Positions 112-15,187 are shown, numbered from the stretch's first letter. The stretch is 21,332 nucleotides of DNA from Fibrobacterota bacterium (GCA_003165595.1 PLWQ01000020.1:1-21332); one strand, 5' to 3'. The notes: generated from the sequence alone by a model not told the origin. Numbers and translations are program-made.

Positions 112-873
112 ATGACTACCATTGCAATCACCGGCAAAGGCGGAACAGGCAAGACCACCATTTCGGCGCTCATCGTGCGCCGGCTCGTGGCCGACAAGAA
201 GACGCCGGTGCTGGCCGTCGACGCCGATTCGAATGCGAATTTCAACGAAGTGCTCGGAGTTTCCTATTCGGCGTCGGTTGGCGGCATACGCGAGGACGCG
301 CGCGCAAAGGCCGGCTCCATGGGCGGCGGGCTTTCCAAACAGCAGTTTCTGGAAACGCAGGTAAACCAGGCGCTTGTCGAAAGCGAAGGCTTCGACCTTG
401 TGGTGATGGGCAGGCCCGAAGGACCGGGATGCTACTGCTTTGCCAACAACGTGCTGCGCGACGTGCTGGCCCGGATTTCGCGGAATTACCCTTTTATCGT
501 GGTTGATTGCGAGGCCGGGCTCGAACACCTGTCCCGCCGCACGCTGCTCGACGTCGACTGGCTTGTTACCGTATCCGATCCGTCAATTCGGGGGCTGCGC
601 ACGGCCAAACGGGTGGGCGAGCTCGTTGACGAGATGAAGACGCGGGTGCGGAGAAGGGCGCTGGTGATCAACAGGCTTTCCAAGACTGCGAACGAATTGA
701 CAGAAGCGCAACGGGAGGCAATCGCGGCCAGCAGGTTCGACAGGGTCTTCTTTCTGCCGCTTGACGAGGAGATTACCCGGATGGATGAGAATGGCGGTAC
801 GGTGAGGGATATCAGTGAGAATAGTGGGATTTACAAAGGCCTGTCCGAGATGACGCGGACACTGAGCGAATGA
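112..873 (+). CDS. cooC: CooC/AcsF-type nickel-insertion ATPase for CODH/ACS
   Basis: A cytoplasmic P-loop ATPase of 253 residues, the usual length for CooC/AcsF, which helps put nickel into the C-cluster of CODH or the A-cluster of ACS. The sequence shows the deviant Walker A motif GKGGTGKTT at residues 8-16 with the signature lysine of the MinD/ArsA class. It also has a DADSN motif at 37-41, the CYC pair (C107, C109) that forms the metal site at the dimer interface in CooC, and VDCEAGLEH at 131-139 in the Switch II position. The ATG at 112 opens directly onto the conserved MTTIAITGKGG start. No purine-rich ribosome binding site precedes it; the region is pyrimidine-rich repeat. It is the first gene of the CODH/ACS cluster. 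The sequence does not decide between CooC (serving CODH) and AcsF (serving ACS); as the only copy here it may serve both. Confidence 0.93.
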   Translation: MTTIAITGKGGTGKTTISALIVRRLVADKKTPVLAVDADSNANFNEVLGVSYSASVGGIREDARAKAGSMGGGLSKQQFLETQVNQALVESEGFDLVVMGRPEGPGCYCFANNVLRDVLARISRNYPFIVVDCEAGLEHLSRRTLLDVDWLVTVSDPSIRGLRTAKRVGELVDEMKTRVRRRALVINRLSKTANELTEAQREAIAASRFDRVFFLPLDEEITRMDENGGTVRDISENSGIYKGLSEMTRTLSE

Positions 874-1051: not shown

Positions 1052-2989
1052 ATGAGTGACAGCAGAAATTGTGCACGCGACATCGATCCCGCAACTTTGC
1101 AAATGAAAGCAGTTGCAAAGGCGCGTGGCATCGAAACCGTGTGGGATCGTTCGGACGCAAATACCCTGTGCAAATTCGGCGCCGAGGGACTGTGCTGTAA
1201 GAATTGCAACCTGGGGCCGTGCAGGATATCGGTGCGGGCGCCCAGAGGCATGTGCGGCGCGGACGCCGACACCATCGCGGCGCGCAACCTGAGCCGGTCT
1301 GTAGCGGCCGGAACATCGGCGCATTCGGATCACGGCCGTCACCTGGTTCACACGCTGCGCATGGTTGCGGAAGGGAAGACAGACTCATATAGAATTACCG
1401 ACGAACGAAAGCTTATGGAAACGGCCAGGATTTACAAAATAGAGACCGACGGCCGACCGGCTCTCGACATAGCACAAGAGCTGGCCGACGTATTGGAGGC
1501 GGAGTTTGCCTACAGCGCGATTCCGATGAAGACTCTTTCACAAGCACCCGTCAAGCGGCAGGCTCTATGGCAAAAAAACGGTGTGCAGCCGCACGGGGTC
1601 GACCACGCGGTGGTTGAACTCATGCACCGCACCCACATGGGCGTGGATCACGCATTCGACCACGTAGAGCAGGCTTCGATCACCGCGTCGCTTGCCGACG
1701 GCTGGGGAGGCTCGATGATCGCCACTGCCGTCTCCGACATTCTGTTCGGGACGCCGCGTCCGCTCCTTTCCTCGGTTAATCTCGGGGTTATCTCAGCGGA
1801 CCAGGTGAACATCGTTGTGCACGGCCACGAACCAACACTGTCGGAATGCGTCGCCGCGGTATGCGAAGACCCGCGGACCATCGCCTACGCAAAAAGCAAG
1901 GGAGCAGCCGGCATACGCCTGTCGGGCATTTGCTGCACCGCCAACGAAATTCTCATGCGCCGCGGCGTTCCCGTTGCTGGCAGCTTTTTGCAGCAGGAGC
2001 TTGCCATCATGACCGGCGCTGTGGAAATGATGCTGGTTGACGTGCAGTGCGTCATGCCGTCGCTCGCCTCGGTTGCCGCGTGTTTCCACACCAAAGTGGT
2101 GGCAACGTCGAAACTCGCGCACACCAGCGGTTTCGAGACAATCGAATTCGACGAGGAACACGCGATGGAGCAGGCGCGCAGCCTGGTGACATCGGCAATC
2201 GACAACTTTGCGAACAGGAAGAAAGACTCGGTGACGATTCCCGACGCCCGCGTCGAATTCGTCGCGGGATTTTCGGTGCGCGCCATCCACGAAATGCTGG
2301 GCGGTCGCTTCCGCAGCGGGCTTCGGCCGCTCAACGATGCCATTATCGACGGCCGCATACGCGGGATCGCGGGCGTGGTGGGATGCAACAATCCCAAGAA
2401 AGGCCTCGACGGAACAATTGTCCCTCTTGTTAAGGGACTCATCGCCAGCGATGTGCTGGTGCTGCTTACCGGGTGCGCGGCGATCACGTGCGCAAAGGCC
2501 GGACTGCTTTCCCCCGAAGCTGCGGCAATGGCAGGACCTGGATTGCGCGAGGTGTGCGAGGCGGTGGGCATGCCGCCCGTTCTCCACCTCGGGTCATGCG
2601 TTGACAACAGCAGAATTCTTTCCGCTGCCTGCGACGTGCTGGCCGAGGGCGGGCTCGGCGACGATATTTCGGATCTTCCGGCAGCCGGCGCCGCGCCCGA
2701 GTGGATGAGCGAAAAAGCTGTTGCCATCGGCCACTATTTTGTGGCCTCGGGCATGCTTGTCCTGTTGGGCAGCCCCCTGCATGTTACGGGCGGCGAAAAA
2801 CTCAATACTCTGCTTACAAAGGATCTGGAGACCACGTTCGGCGGAAAGTTCGCGTGGGGATCGGATACGCCGACGCAGGTGAAGATCATACTCGACCATA
2901 TAGACAAGAAACGCGAGGCGCTCGGCATCAACACAAAGCGGCAGCGCCAGCTCCTGGATATGAAAGAAAGAAGGGCGCTCGATGTCTAA
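1052..2989 (+). CDS. cooS: Ni-Fe carbon monoxide dehydrogenase catalytic subunit (CooS/AcsA)
   Basis: Reversible CO oxidation to CO2; in the ACS complex it reduces CO2 to CO, which is passed to AcsB. The protein has 645 residues, a normal CooS length. N-terminal cysteines C40 and C48 fit the D-cluster shared by the homodimer, and C49, C52, C57 and C68 fit the B-cluster. The C-cluster ligands are all present: H259 (HGHEP), C295 (GICCTANE), C333 (VQCVMP), C445 (VVGCNNP), C475 (LTGCAA) and C516 (HLGSCVDNS). The acid-base candidates H94 (HSDHGRH) and K555 (WMSEKAVAIG) are also present. The spacing closely follows the numbering known for clostridial CooS. The gene overlaps the next one by 8 bases (ATGTCTAA), so translation is probably coupled. 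The direct neighbour acsB makes the synthase-type role (acsA) more likely than respiratory CO oxidation. Confidence 0.96.
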   Translation: MSDSRNCARDIDPATLQMKAVAKARGIETVWDRSDANTLCKFGAEGLCCKNCNLGPCRISVRAPRGMCGADADTIAARNLSRSVAAGTSAHSDHGRHLVHTLRMVAEGKTDSYRITDERKLMETARIYKIETDGRPALDIAQELADVLEAEFAYSAIPMKTLSQAPVKRQALWQKNGVQPHGVDHAVVELMHRTHMGVDHAFDHVEQASITASLADGWGGSMIATAVSDILFGTPRPLLSSVNLGVISADQVNIVVHGHEPTLSECVAAVCEDPRTIAYAKSKGAAGIRLSGICCTANEILMRRGVPVAGSFLQQELAIMTGAVEMMLVDVQCVMPSLASVAACFHTKVVATSKLAHTSGFETIEFDEEHAMEQARSLVTSAIDNFANRKKDSVTIPDARVEFVAGFSVRAIHEMLGGRFRSGLRPLNDAIIDGRIRGIAGVVGCNNPKKGLDGTIVPLVKGLIASDVLVLLTGCAAITCAKAGLLSPEAAAMAGPGLREVCEAVGMPPVLHLGSCVDNSRILSAACDVLAEGGLGDDISDLPAAGAAPEWMSEKAVAIGHYFVASGMLVLLGSPLHVTGGEKLNTLLTKDLETTFGGKFAWGSDTPTQVKIILDHIDKKREALGINTKRQRQLLDMKERRALDV

Positions 2990-5900
2990 GATTATCGCAA
3001 CCGCCGCCATCCGCGGGGCGCATGCCATCGTGGCGCAGGCTCGGACACGGCTGAGCGAGGTACTGGCGGCCAAAGGTGCCGATTGCGGCGTATCGTTCCC
3101 CAACACGGGCTATTATCTGCCGATTGCCTATTCGATGCTGGGGCTGGAGATAGCGAACCTGGGACAGATGAAAGCTGTTATTGACGAATGCAACAACCTG
3201 CTGCCGCCGGTCCCGCGCGATGCGCTCTGGCTGCCTTATCTGGGCCATACGCTCAATGCGGGCATGGCCACGCTGCTTGCGTTTGAAATAATCGAGGCAT
3301 GCAAAACCCTGATCGGTTCCAACCCGGTTGACGGTATCTGGCTGGGCGCGGCCGACGACGTGATTATGCGCGAACGCGGAGTTGAGTTCGTTGACGGAAG
3401 CGCGCCCGGGTTCGCGGCAATCGTCGGCGCCGCGCCGGATGCCGACGCGGCCGTCAGGCTGGCCCGCGAGCTACAAAGCAAAAACCTGTACGTGTTCATG
3501 GCCGGCAATGTCGGCGGCGTGTCGTTTGCCGAACAGCTCGCGTCCAAAGGCGTTGAGCTCGGCTGGGCAACCCGGCTCGTGCCCTTCGGCAAGGACATCA
3601 GCGCGGCGATTCACGCGCTGGGGTTTGCCAGCCGTGCGGCCCTGTCGTTCGGGGGGGTCAGGAAGGGTGATTTCAAGAAGAACCTGGCCTACAACAAGAA
3701 CCGGGTTTTCGCGTTTGTGCTTGCCCTGGGAGAGGTCGACGACGAGAAATACGCGGCGGCGGCGGGATGCATCAATTACGGATTCCCCACCATCGCAAAT
3801 ACGGACATTCCGCAAATCCTTCCTACCGGCATCTGTACCTACGAGCATGTGGTGAGCGGCGTGCCGCTTGACGCCATGGTGGCGCGGGCGCTGGAGGTTC
3901 GCGGCTGCAAAGTAAAGGTGACGCATGTGCCCATCCCGGTAAACTACGGAAGCGCGTTCGAGGGGGAACGCATCCGCAAGGAGCAGGTGCATGTCGAATT
4001 CGGCGGAACCCGCACAGCGGCGTTCGAGTATTGCACCATGAAGGACCCTTCGGAAGTTGAGGACGGCAAGATCACCGTTGTCGGCAAGGAAGCCGACGAA
4101 GTTGAACCCGGAACCCAATTGTCCCTTGCGGTCTGGATTGAAGTGGCCGGCCGCAAGATGCAGCCGGATTTCGAACCTATCCTGGAGCGCCAGGTGCATC
4201 ACCTGATCAACGGCGCCGAAGGCATATGGCACATGGGTCAGCGCGACATCATCTGGGTACGCATCAGTAAAGATGCGTTTGCTAAGGGCTTTCGTATCAG
4301 ACATCTGGGCGAAATCGTCCGCGCGAAATTCTTGAGCGACTATCCCGCCATCGTGGACAAGGTGCAGGTAACGCTGTACACCGACGCGGCAAAGGTGGAT
4401 GGTCTCATCACGGAGGCGCGGCGCGTGTACCGCGAGCGGAACCTGCGCCTGGAATCCATGACCGACGAAAGCGTCGACCTGTACTACTCCTGCCTTTTGT
4501 GCCAGTCGTTTGCACCCAACCATGTGTGCGTGATAACGCCGGAGAGGCTCGGCCTGTGCGGCGCGTACAACTGGCTCGACGGCAAGGCAGCCTATGAGAT
4601 CGACCCCACCGGGCCCAATCAGCCGCTTACCAAGGGAGAACTGATAGACCCGGTGCGCGGCGTGTGGAAAAACATCAACGAGTACGTATTCCAGCATTCA
4701 AACAAGTCGATCGAAGAGATCACCTTGTACTCGATCATGAAGAATCCCATGACCTCCTGCGGCTGCTTCGAGGCCATCTGCGCCGTGGTGCCGGAGCTCA
4801 ACGGCATCATCGTTGTCAACCGCGAATACGCCGGAGACACGCCGCTGGGCATGAAGTTCTCCACCCTGGCCGGCAACGTGGGCGGGGGACAGCAGACGCC
4901 CGGGTTTATCGGGTGCGGAAAGAGTTTCCTTCTGTCAAAGAAGTTCCTCTCGGCCGAAGGCGGGTTCGGCCGCCTTGTGTGGATGCCGTCTTCCCTTAAG
5001 CAGCAAATGAAGGAAGACCTGGAAATAGCGGCGGGGCGCACGTCATGGCCCGATTTGCTCGACCGGATCGCCGACGAAACCGTGGGCGTTGACACCGCCC
5101 TCATTGCCGCCTATCTCAAGGAGAAGAAACATCCTGCTCTTGCTATGTGGGACATCACGCAGCCAAGCCCGGAGGCTTGCAAGGCAGATAGTGCGCGTGA
5201 AGCTTCACAGGGAGGTGGAACTCCCGCCGCAAAGCCGCAAGCCGCTTCGGCGCCGGCAGCCAAACCCGCGGCGCCGAAACCTGCGGTCGTTCTTGAGGAG
5301 CTATTGGCAGTTCCGCCCGTTCCCGGGCCCGATTCGTCCATGACCGAATCGCTTGCGTACATCCGCGCGGTGGTGGCCGACCTCGCGCGCAAAGCAGCAT
5401 CGGGCGAGGCAGACCCCAAGCTCATGAGTGCGGTTACTATGCTGCTCGCTTCCACGGCAACGCTTCATGGCATGAGCAGCGGCGCTAAACCGACAGGTGC
5501 CGCTCCTGCTGCCGATCAGGCGCCGGACATTGTTTTGCCCGCAAAATTTACGCACGCGAAAGAACCCGGCGCTTCGGCCGTAACGCCCGTTACCATCGGC
5601 GGCTGCGGCACGCGCACAAGCAGCCTGATTATCGGCGGTGAAACAATCCTGCCGTTCCGGTACATGGAAGGTTCCTCTGGAAATCCTACGGCCATTGCCA
5701 TGGAGGTGTTCGACGCGCCGCCGGAAAGATACCCGGCCGCGCTTCGGGAATACTATGGGGATACGCTGTCAGATCCGGCAAAAATGGCGCGCCACTGCGT
5801 CGACAAGCTTGGCGCTCAAGCGATAAGTATCAGGCTTGACGGATGCCATCCAGACAAGGGAAACCGTTCTGTGCAGGACGCGGCCGGCGTGGTGGGCGCG

Positions 5901-6494
5901 GTGCTTGGGGCTGTCGGCGTTCCCGTCATCGTGAGCGGCCCGGCGCACTTTGACAAACGCAATGAGGTCATGAAGAAGATCGCGGCCGATTTCGCAGGCG
6001 AGAACCTGCTTCTTAACTGGGTTGAAACCGACAATTACAAAACCATTGCCGGCGCCGCCATGGGGTACAATCATTGCGTTGTGGCGCAGTCGCCCATAGA
6101 CGTCAACATGGCCAAGCAGCTCAACATCCTTCTTGCCGCAATGGGAATAAAGCCGGACAAAATCGTTATCGATCCCATGACCGGCGCGCTCGGCTACGGG
6201 CTCGAATATACCTATTCGGTGATGGAACGCATACGCCTGGGCGGGCTTGGCGGCGACGCCATGCTATCGCAGCCGTTTGTGTGCACCATCGGGTACGAAA
6301 CAGCAAAGTGCAAGGAAGCCAATGCGGTGGGACCGGAGTTTGAAAATTGGGGGAATGCGGCGGAACGAGGTGCAAATCTGGAGATAAGCGCGACAATTGC
6401 TCTTGTCAATGCCGGGGCGAATCTTGTGGTAATGTATTACCCGGAGGCAGTGAAGACGATAAGAAATGTAATTGACAAGATGAAAAGTAATTAA
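2982..6494 (+). CDS. Fused acetyl-CoA synthase (AcsB) - corrinoid protein small subunit (AcsD)
   Basis: One uninterrupted 1170-residue frame carries two proteins that are normally separate. Residues 1 to about 736 are a full bacterial-type acetyl-CoA synthase, including the N-terminal CODH-contacting domain. All six A-cluster cysteines are present: C504, C507, C516, C526, C593 and C595 (YYSCLLCQS, HVCVI, LGLCGAYN, TSCGCFEA), a constant offset of two from the Moorella enzyme as I recall it. Residues about 737-847 are a linker: Ala/Pro/Lys-rich at 745-776, then a probably helical piece (786-834). Residues about 848-1170 are a full AcsD/CdhD TIM barrel (IIGGETILPF, AIAMEVFD, LDGCHPDKGNRSV, IDPMTGALGYGLEYTYSVMER, YYPEAVKTI). 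AcsB makes acetyl-CoA from CO, methyl and CoA; AcsD pairs with AcsC to form the methyl carrier. No stop, frameshift or internal ribosome site was seen at the join; ATG 5340 has no Shine-Dalgarno. A neutral symbol would be acsBD. Confidence 0.94.
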   Translation: MSKIIATAAIRGAHAIVAQARTRLSEVLAAKGADCGVSFPNTGYYLPIAYSMLGLEIANLGQMKAVIDECNNLLPPVPRDALWLPYLGHTLNAGMATLLAFEIIEACKTLIGSNPVDGIWLGAADDVIMRERGVEFVDGSAPGFAAIVGAAPDADAAVRLARELQSKNLYVFMAGNVGGVSFAEQLASKGVELGWATRLVPFGKDISAAIHALGFASRAALSFGGVRKGDFKKNLAYNKNRVFAFVLALGEVDDEKYAAAAGCINYGFPTIANTDIPQILPTGICTYEHVVSGVPLDAMVARALEVRGCKVKVTHVPIPVNYGSAFEGERIRKEQVHVEFGGTRTAAFEYCTMKDPSEVEDGKITVVGKEADEVEPGTQLSLAVWIEVAGRKMQPDFEPILERQVHHLINGAEGIWHMGQRDIIWVRISKDAFAKGFRIRHLGEIVRAKFLSDYPAIVDKVQVTLYTDAAKVDGLITEARRVYRERNLRLESMTDESVDLYYSCLLCQSFAPNHVCVITPERLGLCGAYNWLDGKAAYEIDPTGPNQPLTKGELIDPVRGVWKNINEYVFQHSNKSIEEITLYSIMKNPMTSCGCFEAICAVVPELNGIIVVNREYAGDTPLGMKFSTLAGNVGGGQQTPGFIGCGKSFLLSKKFLSAEGGFGRLVWMPSSLKQQMKEDLEIAAGRTSWPDLLDRIADETVGVDTALIAAYLKEKKHPALAMWDITQPSPEACKADSAREASQGGGTPAAKPQAASAPAAKPAAPKPAVVLEELLAVPPVPGPDSSMTESLAYIRAVVADLARKAASGEADPKLMSAVTMLLASTATLHGMSSGAKPTGAAPAADQAPDIVLPAKFTHAKEPGASAVTPVTIGGCGTRTSSLIIGGETILPFRYMEGSSGNPTAIAMEVFDAPPERYPAALREYYGDTLSDPAKMARHCVDKLGAQAISIRLDGCHPDKGNRSVQDAAGVVGAVLGAVGVPVIVSGPAHFDKRNEVMKKIAADFAGENLLLNWVETDNYKTIAGAAMGYNHCVVAQSPIDVNMAKQLNILLAAMGIKPDKIVIDPMTGALGYGLEYTYSVMERIRLGGLGGDAMLSQPFVCTIGYETAKCKEANAVGPEFENWGNAAERGANLEISATIALVNAGANLVVMYYPEAVKTIRNVIDKMKSN

Positions 6495-6506
6495 TGCTGA
6501 TTTTGC

Positions 6507-6627
6507 GGGGGGAAGTTTCCCCCTCGCTCCAGCCCGGCGCGGCGCCGGTCTTCCGCTACCCCCTCCTGGGTGCACCCCTTGTTGGAGCAGGGGCGAGAGT
6601 CAATCTTTGATTGCGGGGGCACCCACG
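6507..6627. repeat. Dispersed intergenic element, copy A
   Basis: It shares ordered blocks with 15040-15187. These are GGGGGAAGTTTCCCCC followed by TCGCT, then CAGCCCGGCG, then CGCCGGTCTTCCG, then CCCTCCTGGGTGCACCCC, and finally GGGGGCACCCACG. The first block is a near-perfect palindrome, and TGGGTGCACCCC can pair with the terminal GGGGGCACCCA. Between blocks the two copies differ in length and sequence. The conserved ends and variable middle suggest a non-autonomous mobile or structured repeat. Confidence 0.75.
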
Positions 6628-6767
6628 GAGAGTGGTTGGTCCATGGATGCAGCTTTTCATGAATTTTTGAAGCGACAGGATGAACTATTAGATTGCGTTT
6701 TCTGGTTTTGAAATTTAATGGCCGAGAAGCGGCACACAATAGAGAAGGCGTTGCGGAAGCGTGACGC

Positions 6768-6886
6768 GCGCAATGCGTAAGCGTTGCGCATCGCGCACGT
6801 TTCCGCTGGAAAGGGTGTGGGCGCAGATCGCCGCCGCTTTGCGGCGGAAGCTGCGCCCCAGGGGAAACCGCGAAGCGGTGTCCCCC
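6768..6886. other. Cluster of three GC-rich hairpins before acsC
   Basis: Hairpin 1 (6768-6789): a 9-bp stem, GCGCAATGC with GCGTTGCGC (one G-T pair), closed by a GTAA tetraloop. Hairpin 2 (6819-6858): outer 8-bp stem GGGCGCAG/CTGCGCCC around an inner 7-bp stem CCGCCGC/GCGGCGG with loop TTT. Hairpin 3 (6861-6885): outer GGGGA/TCCCC around ACCGC/GCGGT with loop GAA. No T-run follows, so these are not typical terminators. They could act as an mRNA processing or stability element, or be another repeat family. I do not recognise a known riboswitch. Confidence 0.65.
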
Positions 6887-6929
6887 TCAGATTAAGATTC
6901 AAGAAAAATCAAAAAAGGGACTATTAATA

Positions 6930-8282
6930 ATGGCCAAAAAACTCACCGGCATGGACATCTTCAAACTCCTGCCCAAGACCAATTGCGGCGAATGCGGCGT
7001 GGCAACGTGCATGGCCTTCGCCATGAAACTCGCGCAGAAGAACGCAGAACTTTCGCAATGCCCGTACGCGTCCGACGAGGCCACAAAGGTGATCGGCGCG
7101 GCAAGCGAGCCGCCGATCCGTCTTGTAAAGATAGGCACGGGCAAGCATGCCGTTGCCATCGGCAACGAGACCGTGATGTTCCGGCACGACAAGACTTTCG
7201 TGCACCAGACCGCCATTGCGCTTTGCCTCGACGATACGCTCGGAGGGGCTGCGATTTCGAAAACCGCAGCAGACATGGAAGCGTATGCAATTGTTCGCGT
7301 GGGCGAGACGCTGCGCGTCGATATGCTGTGTATCAACAACGCAAGCGGCGATGCCGATGCTTTTGCCGCGGCGGCACGAAGCGCTGCCGCCAATTTCAAA
7401 GGCGCGCTCATGCTCAAGAGCGCATCGGTAAAGAACCTTATCGATTGCTCCACGGCGGTTGGGGATCGCGCCCCGCTGCTGCATGCCGCAACCGCCGCAA
7501 CGGTCGCCGAGCTCGGCGCATTCGCTGCGTCGGCCAAGTTGCCGGTATGCGTTTCCGCGCAAACTATCGACGAGGCGTTCGGCCTCACCGACACGCTTGC
7601 AGGCAAGGGTCATCGTGACATCGTCATAGACGTTGCCGCAAACAATTGCGCGGCAATGATCCAGAACAACACGATCGTGCGCAAGGCCGCGATTGCTTCC
7701 TCGGTGAAGCAGATGGGGTATCCAATTGTCAATTTCATCACCGGCAGGCAATCGGCCGCCGACATGGTTGCCGACGCGTCGAGCGTGATCTGCAAATACG
7801 CATCTATTGTGGTGATAGATCATGCCGACAAAGATGCGCTGTTGCCGCTGCTGATGCTGCGGCAGAATATTTATACCGACCCTCAGAAACCCATTCAGGT
7901 TGACGCCGGAATTTATAAGATCGGCGATGCGGGGCCAAATTCTCCGCTGGTGGTCACCACCAATTTTTCTCTCACGTACTTTATCGTGAGCGGCGAGCTT
8001 GAGAACGCGGGCGTGCCGGTCCACCTCGCCATTGTCGATTCCGAAGGAATGAGCGTGCTCACAGCCTGGGCCGCACGCAAGTTCAACGGCGAGAAGATCG
8101 GAGCCTTTCTGAAGAGCAAGGATGTGAATAAACAGTTCTCGTCGCGTAAAATCATCATCCCCGGGTACGTGGCGTCCATTTCGGGCGAACTCGAAGAAAA
8201 CATGCCCGGGTGGGAAGTGCTGGTGGGGCCGCAGGAGGCGTCCGACATCACGCCGTTTATGAAGAAGTTTGCGAAGGTTTGA
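6930..8282 (+). CDS. acsC: Corrinoid iron-sulfur protein large subunit (AcsC/CdhE gamma)
   Basis: Carries the cobalamin and the [4Fe-4S] cluster that receive the methyl group from methyl-tetrahydrofolate and hand it to the A-cluster of acetyl-CoA synthase; cytoplasmic, partner of AcsD. The protein has 450 residues, close to the usual size of about 445. The N-terminal Fe-S domain shows C19, C22, C27 and C44 (TNCGECGVATC ... QCPY), the hallmark of CdhE/AcsC. A TIM-barrel domain follows and the C-terminal part, roughly from residue 325, is the corrinoid-binding domain. The ATG at 6930 has AGGGA 9 bases upstream and opens onto the conserved MAKKLTGMDIFKLLP. Its partner AcsD is not a separate gene but the C-terminal part of the preceding fusion, 435 bases upstream. 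Confidence 0.95.
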   Translation: MAKKLTGMDIFKLLPKTNCGECGVATCMAFAMKLAQKNAELSQCPYASDEATKVIGAASEPPIRLVKIGTGKHAVAIGNETVMFRHDKTFVHQTAIALCLDDTLGGAAISKTAADMEAYAIVRVGETLRVDMLCINNASGDADAFAAAARSAAANFKGALMLKSASVKNLIDCSTAVGDRAPLLHAATAATVAELGAFAASAKLPVCVSAQTIDEAFGLTDTLAGKGHRDIVIDVAANNCAAMIQNNTIVRKAAIASSVKQMGYPIVNFITGRQSAADMVADASSVICKYASIVVIDHADKDALLPLLMLRQNIYTDPQKPIQVDAGIYKIGDAGPNSPLVVTTNFSLTYFIVSGELENAGVPVHLAIVDSEGMSVLTAWAARKFNGEKIGAFLKSKDVNKQFSSRKIIIPGYVASISGELEENMPGWEVLVGPQEASDITPFMKKFAKV

Positions 8283-8309: not shown

Positions 8310-10205
8310 ATGCCGCACACCATCACCTTTCTCCCTTCCAACAAGACCGGCCTTGTCGCCTCCGGCATCCGCATTTCCGATGCCGCGACAACAATCGACG
8401 AATTTGACCTGCACCTCGAATGCGGCGGCAAGGGCACGTGCCAGAAATGTCTCGTGGAGCTTGTGGCGGGTTGTGTTGAAATCAACGACCGCATATTCAC
8501 GGTTGCGAAAGGCGCAAAGCCGCTTCGGATATTGTCCTGCCAGGGACGCGTATGCGGCGAGGGTGTGTTTTCCATTGTTGCGGGCAGGGCGCACGAGGCC
8601 GCGACCATGTCTCTGGGCAAGGACATTGCAGCCATACCGCCGGGATTGTTGCCCGCAGCGCAGGACATTTCCCCGATCGTGACAACGCTGCGGCTTTGCG
8701 TGGATCAACCGGGCGCAGAGAGCAATTTTCCAGACAGTCAGCGGCTCGAAACGCAGGTTTGGTCCGTTGTCAAAAGCGACGCGCCGGTGTCCATTGAGCC
8801 TTCCGCATTGCGCTCGCTTCCAAATGCTCTGCGTGCCGACAACGGCCGGATAACCGTTCGCTTGCGCAAAGATGCGGAACCAATGACGGTTCTGTCGGTT
8901 GACGCAGGCGACAAAGAAAGCCCGGACGTAGGCATCGCCTGCGACATCGGCACCACAACCGTGTCGGTCCACTGCGTTGACCTTTCCACCGGAAAGGTCC
9001 TTGCCACCTCATCCGATTACAACGGCCAGATCCGGCGCGGCGCCGATGTAATATCCCGGATCGATTACGCGAAGAACGACCAGCGCATCGGGGAAATGCG
9101 GACGCTTGTGCTTGCCACCATGAACGGCCTCATCACAACGGTACTTGACAATATGCACATCCCGGCCGACGAGGTCTTTAACGTTGCGCTTGCGGGCAAC
9201 ACCACCATGATCCACCTGCTGCTGGGGCTGCCTTCGCAGGCCATCCGCGAAAGCCCGTATGTGCCTGTTGTCAACGCCCCGCCGGTGATGCGCGCATGGG
9301 ATGTCGGCCTGAACGTGCATCCCTTGGCTGCCGTGTCGTTTGCGCCCGGTGTCGGCAGCTACGTGGGCGGCGACATCACGTCCGGCCTGCTTACCACGCC
9401 CATGATACACGACAAACATGCAATGAGCCTGTTCATGGACATCGGAACAAACGGCGAGATCGCCATCGGCAACGCGGAATTTCTCATGGCTGCGGCATGC
9501 TCCGCCGGGCCTGCCTTTGAGGGATCGGGCATCAAATGCGGCATGCGCGCCGCACTCGGCGCCATCGAATCGTTTGAGACCGATGCGCAGATGAACGATG
9601 TTCGCTACAGCGTGATCGGCGGCGGCAAGCCCAAAGGCGTATGCGGCTCGGGCCTTATTTCTCTGCTCGGTGAGCTTTACACAAAGGGACTCATCGACAG
9701 GGCCGGAAAGATTTCGGCCTCCGCGCCGGCCCGGAGCATTGCAAAGATCGACGGAACGACGGGCCTGGTGCTTGCGCAGGCGGCCGACACGCTTGACGGA
9801 GCGGCTATCGTGATTACCGAGCCCGATATAGACAACCTCATCCGCACCAAAGGCGCCATCTATGCGGCCTGTGACCTCATGCTGGCGAACATAGGCCTGT
9901 CGGTGCGCGATATTTCGCACGTGTACATCGCGGGCGGGTTCGGAAGGTTTATCGACATAGACAAGGCAGTGCGCATCGGCATGCTGCCCGACATCCCGCG
10001 CGACAAGTTTACCTACCTGGGCAACTCCTCTTTGACGGGAGCGACGCTGTGCCTTGTGTCGAAGGCACGGCGGAAACAGCTTGCCGCTCTCGCCAAACGC
10101 GTCACCTACATCGACCTGTCGAGCGATCACCGGTACATGGACGCCTATGTGGCGGCGCTGTTTCTTCCGCACACCGATGCATCGAGATTCCCGAGTGTGA
10201 AATAG
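8310..10205 (+). CDS. acsV: Reductive activator of corrinoid Fe-S protein (RACo/AcsV)
   Basis: Uses ATP to drive an electron uphill and restore Co(I) from inactivated Co(II) in AcsC/AcsD. The protein has 631 residues, typical of the family. The N-terminal plant-type [2Fe-2S] domain shows C38, C44, C47 and C77 (CGGKGTCQKC ... SCQGR). After a linker/middle region (about 95-205) comes an ASKHA ATPase domain with CDIGTTTVSV (211-220), AGNTTMIHLLLG (295-306) and MDIGTNGEIAIG (376-387). It starts 27 bases after acsC and closes the acs cluster. Like cooC it lacks a purine-rich ribosome binding site and instead follows TTTCTTATC. The family also includes activators for other corrinoid methyltransferases, but the location points to AcsC/AcsD. 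Confidence 0.93.
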   Translation: MPHTITFLPSNKTGLVASGIRISDAATTIDEFDLHLECGGKGTCQKCLVELVAGCVEINDRIFTVAKGAKPLRILSCQGRVCGEGVFSIVAGRAHEAATMSLGKDIAAIPPGLLPAAQDISPIVTTLRLCVDQPGAESNFPDSQRLETQVWSVVKSDAPVSIEPSALRSLPNALRADNGRITVRLRKDAEPMTVLSVDAGDKESPDVGIACDIGTTTVSVHCVDLSTGKVLATSSDYNGQIRRGADVISRIDYAKNDQRIGEMRTLVLATMNGLITTVLDNMHIPADEVFNVALAGNTTMIHLLLGLPSQAIRESPYVPVVNAPPVMRAWDVGLNVHPLAAVSFAPGVGSYVGGDITSGLLTTPMIHDKHAMSLFMDIGTNGEIAIGNAEFLMAAACSAGPAFEGSGIKCGMRAALGAIESFETDAQMNDVRYSVIGGGKPKGVCGSGLISLLGELYTKGLIDRAGKISASAPARSIAKIDGTTGLVLAQAADTLDGAAIVITEPDIDNLIRTKGAIYAACDLMLANIGLSVRDISHVYIAGGFGRFIDIDKAVRIGMLPDIPRDKFTYLGNSSLTGATLCLVSKARRKQLAALAKRVTYIDLSSDHRYMDAYVAALFLPHTDASRFPSVK

Positions 10206-10238: not shown

Positions 10239-10398
10239 CAATCCTCGCTCCCTTTTTCCGCATTTGCGTCTTTGCTGGACTATATTAATCAGAGTGCCGG
10301 ATTGCGTGGTCGATTGAACCGGACTCCTGGCTGGCCCGCGCGGCCTCGTCCTGCGGAATCATATCAAAACGCCGAAGGTTGATTCGATATCTTTGTCT

Positions 10399-10403
10399 GG
10401 AGG
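10399..10403 (+). promoter_or_regulatory. Ribosome binding site deciding the chitinase start
   Basis: GGAGG lies 5 bases before ATG 10409. An in-frame ATG at 10379 is rejected because it has no such site and would put ten residues in front of a clear signal peptide. Confidence 0.8.
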
Positions 10404-10408
10404 TAGTC

Positions 10409-11566
10409 ATGAATAGGATCGGTTTTCTCATTGTTGTTTGCGCCCTTCTCGGCAATACGGCACACGCCCAGCAGAAATACGTTGGCTGGTCTGCGGGGTA
10501 TCTGCCGGACTACGCCAATTTCCCGGTTTCAAGCATCAATTGGAAGTGCTACACGCATGTCATGTGGTTCTCGATAACGCCCAACAGTTCCGGCGTTGTG
10601 GGCGGTCTCAATTCGAGCACGGCAAAGAGTTTTACGGCCGCGTGCCATCAAAACAACACAAAGGCGATCATTTGCGTGGGCGGCGCGGGCGCCGCGAGCA
10701 GTTTCGAGACGGCCACCGCAAATGCGACGATCCTGAACACCTTTGTCAACAGCATGGTAACTCTCATGCAAACGAACTCTTTTGACGGGATAGACATAGA
10801 CTGGGAGGACGACGGAAACGGCATCACGGCGTCACGGTATATGGCCCTCTTTGTGGCCCTCAATACGGCCCTCACGAAAATTACTCCAAAACCGCTGCTC
10901 ACCGCGGCCGTGGCGGATTACTTTTCGAACGCCAGCGCTCCGGTGTACCCGTATTGCGACCAGATGAACATCATGTCGTATTACGACGACGTCAACTCAA
11001 GTGCGCAGGAGGTCTCGGCATTCACCAACAAGGGAGTTCCCAAGAGTAAACTTGGCATCGGGTACGGTTACGATGTCGACCAGGAGGTCGACGGCCCAAA
11101 CGAATGCGGCAACGGGCCCAACGGCAATCCCACGGACATCAATGCGAAGTGCCTGTATTCAATCAACAACGGGTGCGGCGGCATCATGATCTGGGAAATC
11201 GACAGGGCGCCGAAGGTATGCGACAGCGTTACCGCGCATTATGTAAACAAGATCGTGACCGGAATCATACCGTATTTTGCCGACCGGGAAATTTCCGAGA
11301 ACATGCTCACCGTCAGGCGGAACCGTTGTTCGGGAATCAGCGAGATCTGTTATACGGTTCCGGGAAATTCCGCCTCGGCCATTGACCTGACCATGTATGA
11401 TGCGAGCGGCGCTCTTGTGAGAACCCTCGTTCATGGTTTGGGTATGCCGGGCACTCATTCGTACATACTGGAACAAAACGGCCTGAACTGCAATTCCGGA
11501 ATCTATGTTTTCAAATTGAGGACGAATTCGAGAACCGCGGCGACAAAGGCGTTTGTTGTCAGATAG
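10409..11566 (+). CDS. Secreted GH18 chitinase-like glycoside hydrolase with C-terminal sorting-type domain
   Basis: Predicted to hydrolyse chitin or related beta-1,4-GlcNAc polymers outside the cytoplasm. The 385 residues begin with a signal peptide (hydrophobic 4-15, AHA cleavage site after residue 20). The GH18 catalytic motif is intact: FDGIDIDWE with D126, D129, D131 and the acid E133. QMNIMSYYD (185-193) supplies the usual Met/Tyr pocket residues and GGIMIWEID closes the barrel. The final 85 or so residues (YDASGALVRTL ... SGIYVFKLRT ... KAFVV) look like a FlgD-type/T9SS-type sorting domain, common in Fibrobacterota and Bacteroidota. That implies surface attachment or outer-membrane export. 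It is transcribed with the acs genes' strand but has its own leader of about 200 bases and is probably a separate unit. Substrate is not proven; some GH18 proteins cleave other glycans. Confidence 0.85.
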   Translation: MNRIGFLIVVCALLGNTAHAQQKYVGWSAGYLPDYANFPVSSINWKCYTHVMWFSITPNSSGVVGGLNSSTAKSFTAACHQNNTKAIICVGGAGAASSFETATANATILNTFVNSMVTLMQTNSFDGIDIDWEDDGNGITASRYMALFVALNTALTKITPKPLLTAAVADYFSNASAPVYPYCDQMNIMSYYDDVNSSAQEVSAFTNKGVPKSKLGIGYGYDVDQEVDGPNECGNGPNGNPTDINAKCLYSINNGCGGIMIWEIDRAPKVCDSVTAHYVNKIVTGIIPYFADREISENMLTVRRNRCSGISEICYTVPGNSASAIDLTMYDASGALVRTLVHGLGMPGTHSYILEQNGLNCNSGIYVFKLRTNSRTAATKAFVVR

Positions 11567-15039: not shown

Positions 15040-15187
15040 GGGGGAAGTTTCCCCCTCGCTTCAGCCCGGCGTACCGCCGGTCTTCCGGCGCTTTCCGCCC
15101 TTACTGTTGGGCGGGCGCATGCCCTCCTGGGTGCACCCCAAGTAAGTTGATTTGCAAGCAACATGCTGCGGCTAGGGGGCACCCACG
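15040..15187. repeat. Dispersed intergenic element, copy B
   Basis: Second copy of the element at 6507-6627, in the same orientation. The shared blocks occur in the same order: the GGGGGAAGTTTCCCCC palindrome, CAGCCCGGCG, CCGCCGGTCTTCCG, CCCTCCTGGGTGCACCCC and GGGGGCACCCACG. Copy B is 27 bases longer. Its extra middle part includes CCGCCC/GGGCGG arms (15096-15115) that could form another hairpin. Confidence 0.75.

Follow-up and report, generated by a model that had tools for sequence, protein, structure and literature searches.

The locus and the two enzyme parts of AcsBD

The window, i.e. the whole stretch of 21,332 nt from a Fibrobacterota bacterium that was analysed here (GCA_003165595.1 PLWQ01000020.1:1-21332), starts 111 bp upstream of a gene for a cooC-type nickel-insertion ATPase (112..873, plus strand, 253 aa), which Pfam and NCBIfam assign to the CbiA/MinD-type ATPases and whose homologues lie directly 5′ of cooS also in other loci carrying the fusion described below. 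The gene that follows on the same strand is cooS/acsA (1052..2989), coding for the catalytic subunit of Ni-CODH (TIGR01702 CO_DH_cata, 606 bits with a cut-off of 478; Prismane domain). Its frame is open from position 893, and its start is likely to be near 1052, where it has been placed because homology begins there; the first ~53 codons of the frame, between 893 and 1052, resemble a non-coding repeat. The first 8 bp of acsBD lie within the end of cooS, and downstream of acsBD are found acsC (6930..8282, plus strand; PRK04165, 530 bits; FeS domain PF04060), for the corrinoid- and [4Fe-4S]-binding large subunit of CoFeSP, and then acsV (8310..10205, plus strand), for a RACo-type reductive activator of CoFeSP, which contains the RACo domains and scores 570 bits with the AcsV model, under the cut-off of 800. 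The 435-bp gap between acsBD and acsC (6495-6929), which is nearly absent in many fused loci, contains a 48-bp repeat that recurs, 92% identical, at 15040-15087. Riboswitch control of the operon was considered and rejected, Rfam having given no match for the window or for any of 14 related loci.

In bacterial CODH/ACS, AcsB and AcsD are normally separate parts. Here, as the preliminary description had it, a complete AcsB and a complete AcsD are encoded in one uninterrupted open frame, from the ATG at 2982 to the stop codon ending at 6494 (1170 aa). The AcsB part (2982..5156, plus strand; residues 1-725) is formed by the CODH-binding N-domain, a middle domain and the A-cluster domain, and the AcsD part (5559..6482, plus strand; residues 860-1167) corresponds to the TIM-barrel small subunit of CoFeSP, the two being joined by a linker (5157..5558, plus strand; residues ~726-859). 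Pfam recognizes CODH_A_N (23-108), CdhC (318-472), ACS_CODH_B_C (483-723) and CdhD (876-1101). Residues 10-725 score 1038 bits with NCBIfam CODH_ACS_al_bet (cut-off 800), and the PDB matches of this part are the C. hydrogenoformans and Moorella ACS (E 1e-210). The six A-cluster cysteines, all of which had been reported from the first reading of the sequence, are C504, C507, C516, C526, C593 and C595, and are invariant in 79/79 fused proteins; together with the CdhC core, the C-terminal domain and the CODH-binding N-domain, these residues identify the AcsB part as a bacterial acetyl-CoA synthase. Residues 860-1167 reach 351 bits with the AcsD-type model PRK04452.1-2 (cut-off 280) and 128 bits with PF03599, and 250 bits with the narrower WLP_AcsD model, below its cut-off of 430; the PDB match is the Moorella CFeSP small subunit (4djd_D, E 2e-80). 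Both enzyme domains of the AcsBD model resemble known structures in Foldseek searches, the AcsD part matching 4djd_D and 2h9a_B with TMt values of 0.93-0.95. The AcsD part is thus a CoFeSP small subunit, with a CdhD TIM-barrel over the family cut-off and a matching fold, and the catalytic domains, the fold and the partners of AcsBD are those of the known bacterial CODH/ACS.

The linker and its helix

The linker, for which a length of about 110 residues had been proposed, is in fact ~134 aa long and is modelled as a conserved amphipathic helix with a disordered arm on either side, an organization that is new here. The arms vary in sequence and have a high content of Ala, Pro and Glu; the helical element (5340..5468, plus strand; residues 787-829), defined by AlphaFold2 and by conservation, follows in the family roughly the pattern LTPELIxQIKxQIxxEIxxELKxSVTxEIVxDIIxTLSxKFLG. 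In the AlphaFold2 model of the window protein the arms have pLDDT values of ~30-50 and the element folds as a hairpin of two helices (787-806 and 812-829); in the typical member L015 it is predicted as one 40-residue helix (46-85). The segment is recognizable in 77/79 fused proteins; it has diverged in the subclade to which the window belongs and is absent from two proteins of Syntrophaceae, and a search of the ORFs of the compared loci found it nowhere outside the fused family. The helix probably serves for docking or self-association. In being a short amphipathic helix set into flexible sequence, it resembles the encapsulation peptides that target enzymes to bacterial microcompartments, but it is very improbable that the linker helix is one of them: the shell protein PF00936 is found in only 9/35 fused genomes, and in neither the window genome nor its fused relatives G001, G003, G011 and G041, a distribution on which microcompartment targeting was rejected as a general role.

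Distribution and origin of the fusion

A scan of species genomes yielded 80 related loci, and the search for further architectures with both domains in one chain, which the preliminary description had called for, returned the same single-frame fusion in 76 of them, representing 15 or more named phyla and several candidate divisions. The fusion is therefore widespread and no local oddity. Nearly all these loci come from metagenome-assembled genomes, with one 'OttesenSCG' genome that, by its name, is presumably from a single cell. The window genome itself (5.39 Mb in 42 contigs, 98% complete, 0.78% contamination) gave no second AcsB or AcsD when searched for them, and in a set of 36 genomes with the fusion no unrelated stand-alone AcsD was seen. 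That the long frame of the window results from an assembly mis-join or from an annotation artefact is barely conceivable, since the fusion is reproduced in independent assemblies, including that of a genome of the same genus (G001) with a protein of 79% identity, and since the active-site residues are invariant.

When the fusions are mapped on the AcsB tree, as had also been suggested, all fused AcsB sequences form one clade. In the IQ-TREE analysis (54 domains, 725 columns) the clade includes the 24 fused rows with a support of 100/99, is recovered in 100% of the bootstrap trees and has as its sister the split AcsB of Desulfobacterota and Spirochaetota genomes; in the FastTree analysis (167 rows) it includes 79 fused rows with a support of 100. 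It follows that the fusion arose once; its patchy distribution was probably reached by transfer. The AcsD tree agrees with that of AcsB, and in the trees of AcsC and AcsV the fused loci separate cleanly from the split ones, with a branch support of only 69 for AcsC, while the CooS tree needs two changes between the two states; the agreement of the trees points to a module of single origin that has travelled largely as a unit, and very patchily. In the phylum surveys the fused form was found in ~11/26 AcsB-bearing genomes of Spirochaetota, in 5-7/12 genomes of Verrucomicrobiota, in 1/~95 genomes with a match in Bacillota and in 1/~150 genomes of Desulfobacterota, being near absent from the latter two phyla as sampled. 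Within the window's order both the fused and the classical split forms occur, in different genomes.

Five rows within the fused clade were scored as split, and none of them is convincing as a case of re-splitting: the apparent split is a 10-N scaffold gap in L069, a contig end in L079 and L092, and a single frameshift in L067 and L075. The frameshift of L075, from Hydrogenedentota, is found inside the linker (~10256-10520), and may be an error or a real split. Independent fusions in G305, G546, G585, G622 and G091, suggested by open-frame values above 1000, were rejected because ORF checks gave separate B and D genes. The acidobacterial genome G091 (L242, C127), one of the set of 36 mentioned above, has besides its fused cluster a further cluster of the split type (acsB-acsD-acsC-acsV), whose branches are very long in both trees.

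An operon with a MesB-like gene and without acsE

The genes typically found with the fusion are, in order, a homocysteine S-methyltransferase gene (not always present; nearby in 29/80 loci), often a mesB-like gene with a second cooC, and then cooC-cooS-acsBD-acsC-acsV, CooS being encoded in 75/80 loci. The fusion thus marks a distinct operon type, [methyltransferase]-cooC-cooS-acsBD-acsC-acsV, which is likewise new here. Two features of the canonical acetogen-type acs operon do not apply to it, namely separate acsB and acsD genes and an acsE gene within the operon or close to it: acsE occurs in 0/80 fused loci versus 18/23 split loci, the latter being cut to a similar length but fewer in number and from fewer phyla. 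The recurrent neighbour families identified at the loci include no methyl-branch genes. At the level of whole genomes, AcsE-sized pterin-binding proteins are encoded in 10/35 fused versus 22/25 split genomes (Fisher p = 5e-6), and in those ten fused genomes never on the acs contig. A search of the window genome for AcsE, in which the upstream side of the operon is cut by the contig end, found only FolP and MetH. Genome G305 carries split acsB and acsD genes together with acsE.

The mesB-like genes code for a family of ~360 aa proteins and are present in ~58/80 fused loci (e.g. L018:4128-5213, and L310:10667-11749 on the minus strand); where at least 5 kb of upstream sequence is available the count is 56/59, versus 0/23 for split loci. 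In G001 the gene is directly upstream of cooC, and its counterpart is not visible at the window locus because the contig begins 111 bp before cooC. The putative zinc ligands, HxCC...D...C (i.e. an H-x-C...D...C pattern), are invariant in 45/45 members and correspond to the HCDC form of the HCEC/HCDC zinc-ligand signature described for MesB (PMC7857596). Similarity to characterized families is distant: 18/23 members match the NCBIfam methionine synthase model PRK00957, with 24-41 bits for a cut-off of 258 and a best E of 1.7e-10, matches to the CoM methyltransferase MtbA are weaker still, and Pfam and PDB searches gave none. The proteins seemingly form an unnamed family of methylcorrinoid:thiol methyltransferases, zinc-dependent by their conserved residues and probably using homocysteine as the thiol, an acceptor that is only putative because the scores are far below the cut-off and Pfam gives no match.

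Comparison with known systems

The module shares with the enzymes of Moorella thermoacetica, Carboxydothermus hydrogenoformans and Clostridium autoethanogenum the CooS/AcsA subunit, an AcsB with the N-terminal CODH-binding domain, AcsC, AcsD, AcsV and the A-cluster residues; it differs from that type by having AcsB and AcsD in one chain with a helix-bearing linker, no acsE in the operon and a mesB-like gene. Archaeal CdhC has no counterpart of the bacterial N-terminal domain and is a separate chain from CdhD. The core CdhC domain aligns with that of the archaeal ACDS of Methanosarcina thermophila (9c0s/9c0t), from which AcsBD departs by its N-terminal CODH_A_N domain; ACDS is a large stable assembly, a trait that is predicted for AcsBD as well.

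A functional parallel may be that of Dehalococcoides, which is without AcsE and MetF and in which a core methionine synthase has been proposed to take the methyl group from CoFeSP (PMC7857596, PMC7005905), so that methyl groups would flow from acetyl-CoA to CoFeSP and to homocysteine (PMC7005905). As in Dehalococcoides mccartyi, with its AcsB, AcsCD and core-MetE/MesB, AcsE is not found beside ACS and CoFeSP, and the methyl group is likely to be accepted by a zinc methyltransferase resembling MetE (PMC7005905, PMC7857596); unlike Dehalococcoides, where CODH is absent (PMC7005905), the fused operon encodes CooS and a joined AcsB-AcsD. The acs clusters described in termite-gut Treponema, a phylum and habitat shared with several fused members, have separate genes for ACS and for the small and large Fe-S protein subunits, and a methyltransferase gene (Matson 2011, PMC3082573), whereas uncultured Treponema from termite and cockroach guts (G062, G068, G071 and G075) carry the fused acsBD, no AcsE-like protein being found in them.

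Proposed function of the tethered module

For CODH/ACS, a central question concerns the way in which the methyl group passes between CoFeSP and ACS; the split complex requires large movements and a dissociable partner (PMC12289521). In AcsBD one polypeptide would contain both ACS and the small CoFeSP subunit, connected by a linker that is long and flexible, so that the AcsB to AcsD ratio is 1:1 if the chain is left uncut. AcsC binds AcsD in all CoFeSP structures. By the usual AcsC/AcsD dimer, the AcsD part is expected to hold the corrinoid subunit, which would thereby be tethered to ACS and could swing among the A-cluster, the activator AcsV and the methyl partner, with CooS taking the CO end. 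A permanent CODH/ACS/corrinoid assembly, as the preliminary description suggested, may form. A long flexible tether is geometrically plausible in view of the published AlphaFold3 model of the split complex, in which the ACS N-domain contacts the CoFeSP small subunit and, in the extended state, the corrinoid domain reaches the A-cluster (PMC12289521).

With AcsE gone, CoFeSP would not need to meet a methyl-THF enzyme, and the concurrent presence of a MesB/MetE-like zinc methyltransferase suggests that the partner with which AcsC exchanges the methyl group is most likely not methyl-THF but a thiol, probably homocysteine. The likeliest net use would be the cleavage of acetyl-CoA, the methyl group ending in methionine and the carbonyl being oxidized to CO2 by CooS. 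We thus favour, with about as much confidence as reserve, a tethered ACS-CoFeSP module that passes methyl groups to or from a thiol (probably homocysteine) and probably cleaves acetyl-CoA for methionine, the direction being the inferred part. Of the earlier proposal that tethering would keep the methyl donor next to the A-cluster, the fusion and the tether stand, on the single frame, the disordered arms, the single origin and the large clade; the notion of an ordinary acetogenic complex with improved efficiency does not, given that acsE is absent and a MesB/MetE-like gene is present. Counting against the cleavage reading are the contig end that hides any mesB-like gene of the window genome, the MetH of that genome, which could make methionine, the low methionine-synthase scores of the MesB-like family, and the ten fused genomes with an AcsE-sized pterin protein elsewhere. 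Nor does the absence of AcsE force the direction of cleavage, because human-gut Oscillospirales with a full methyl branch (fhs, folD, metF) often are without acsE (PMC11338639).

In a less probable reading AcsBD is biosynthetic, serving acetogenesis or CO2 fixation; another methyltransferase would then charge CoFeSP in place of AcsE, and no more than a share of the methyl groups would be diverted to methionine by the MesB-like enzyme. The Oscillospirales and those ten genomes speak for it, as do the MetH or short MetH-like proteins (812-931 aa) of many fused genomes, the nearby homocysteine S-methyltransferases and the nearly constant CooS, which CO2 fixation needs; yet a methyl-THF:corrinoid methyltransferase was found in the flanks of 0/80 fused loci, and the window genome offers no candidate beyond FolP and MetH. 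A neutral accident, in which adjacent acsB and acsD genes lost the stop codon between them and the joined enzyme became fixed while working like the split one, seems unlikely. The route would have been easy, because separate acsB and acsD genes are adjacent in some split operons (L242, L244 and L241), and the two Syntrophaceae members do without the linker helix; such an accident, however, would not account for a clade of many phyla in which no case of re-splitting is convincing, for the retention of the helix in nearly all members while the arms drift, or for the coincidence of the fusion with the loss of acsE and the gain of mesB.

No account of an AcsB-AcsD fusion was found in a full-text literature search, outside the scope of which lay the likeliest place for one, Adam et al. 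2018 (PNAS). Tentatively, AcsBD may represent an undescribed class of CODH/ACS, tethered and AcsE-free, in which the MesB-like enzyme mediates methyl exchange between acetyl-CoA and a thiol, and many uncultured 'acetogens' called from acsB may then make methionine from acetyl-CoA. With a natural tether, docking also becomes accessible to study without the contribution of diffusion. The acsB gene is a common acetogen marker, and its link to the operon type implies that modules of two different kinds are detected with it. Those with the fusion are present in termite-gut Treponema, Synergistaceae, Lentisphaerae and other uncultured lineages, where acetogenesis is usually inferred from such genes; in the gut Treponema with the fused form it is not to be assumed from acsB.
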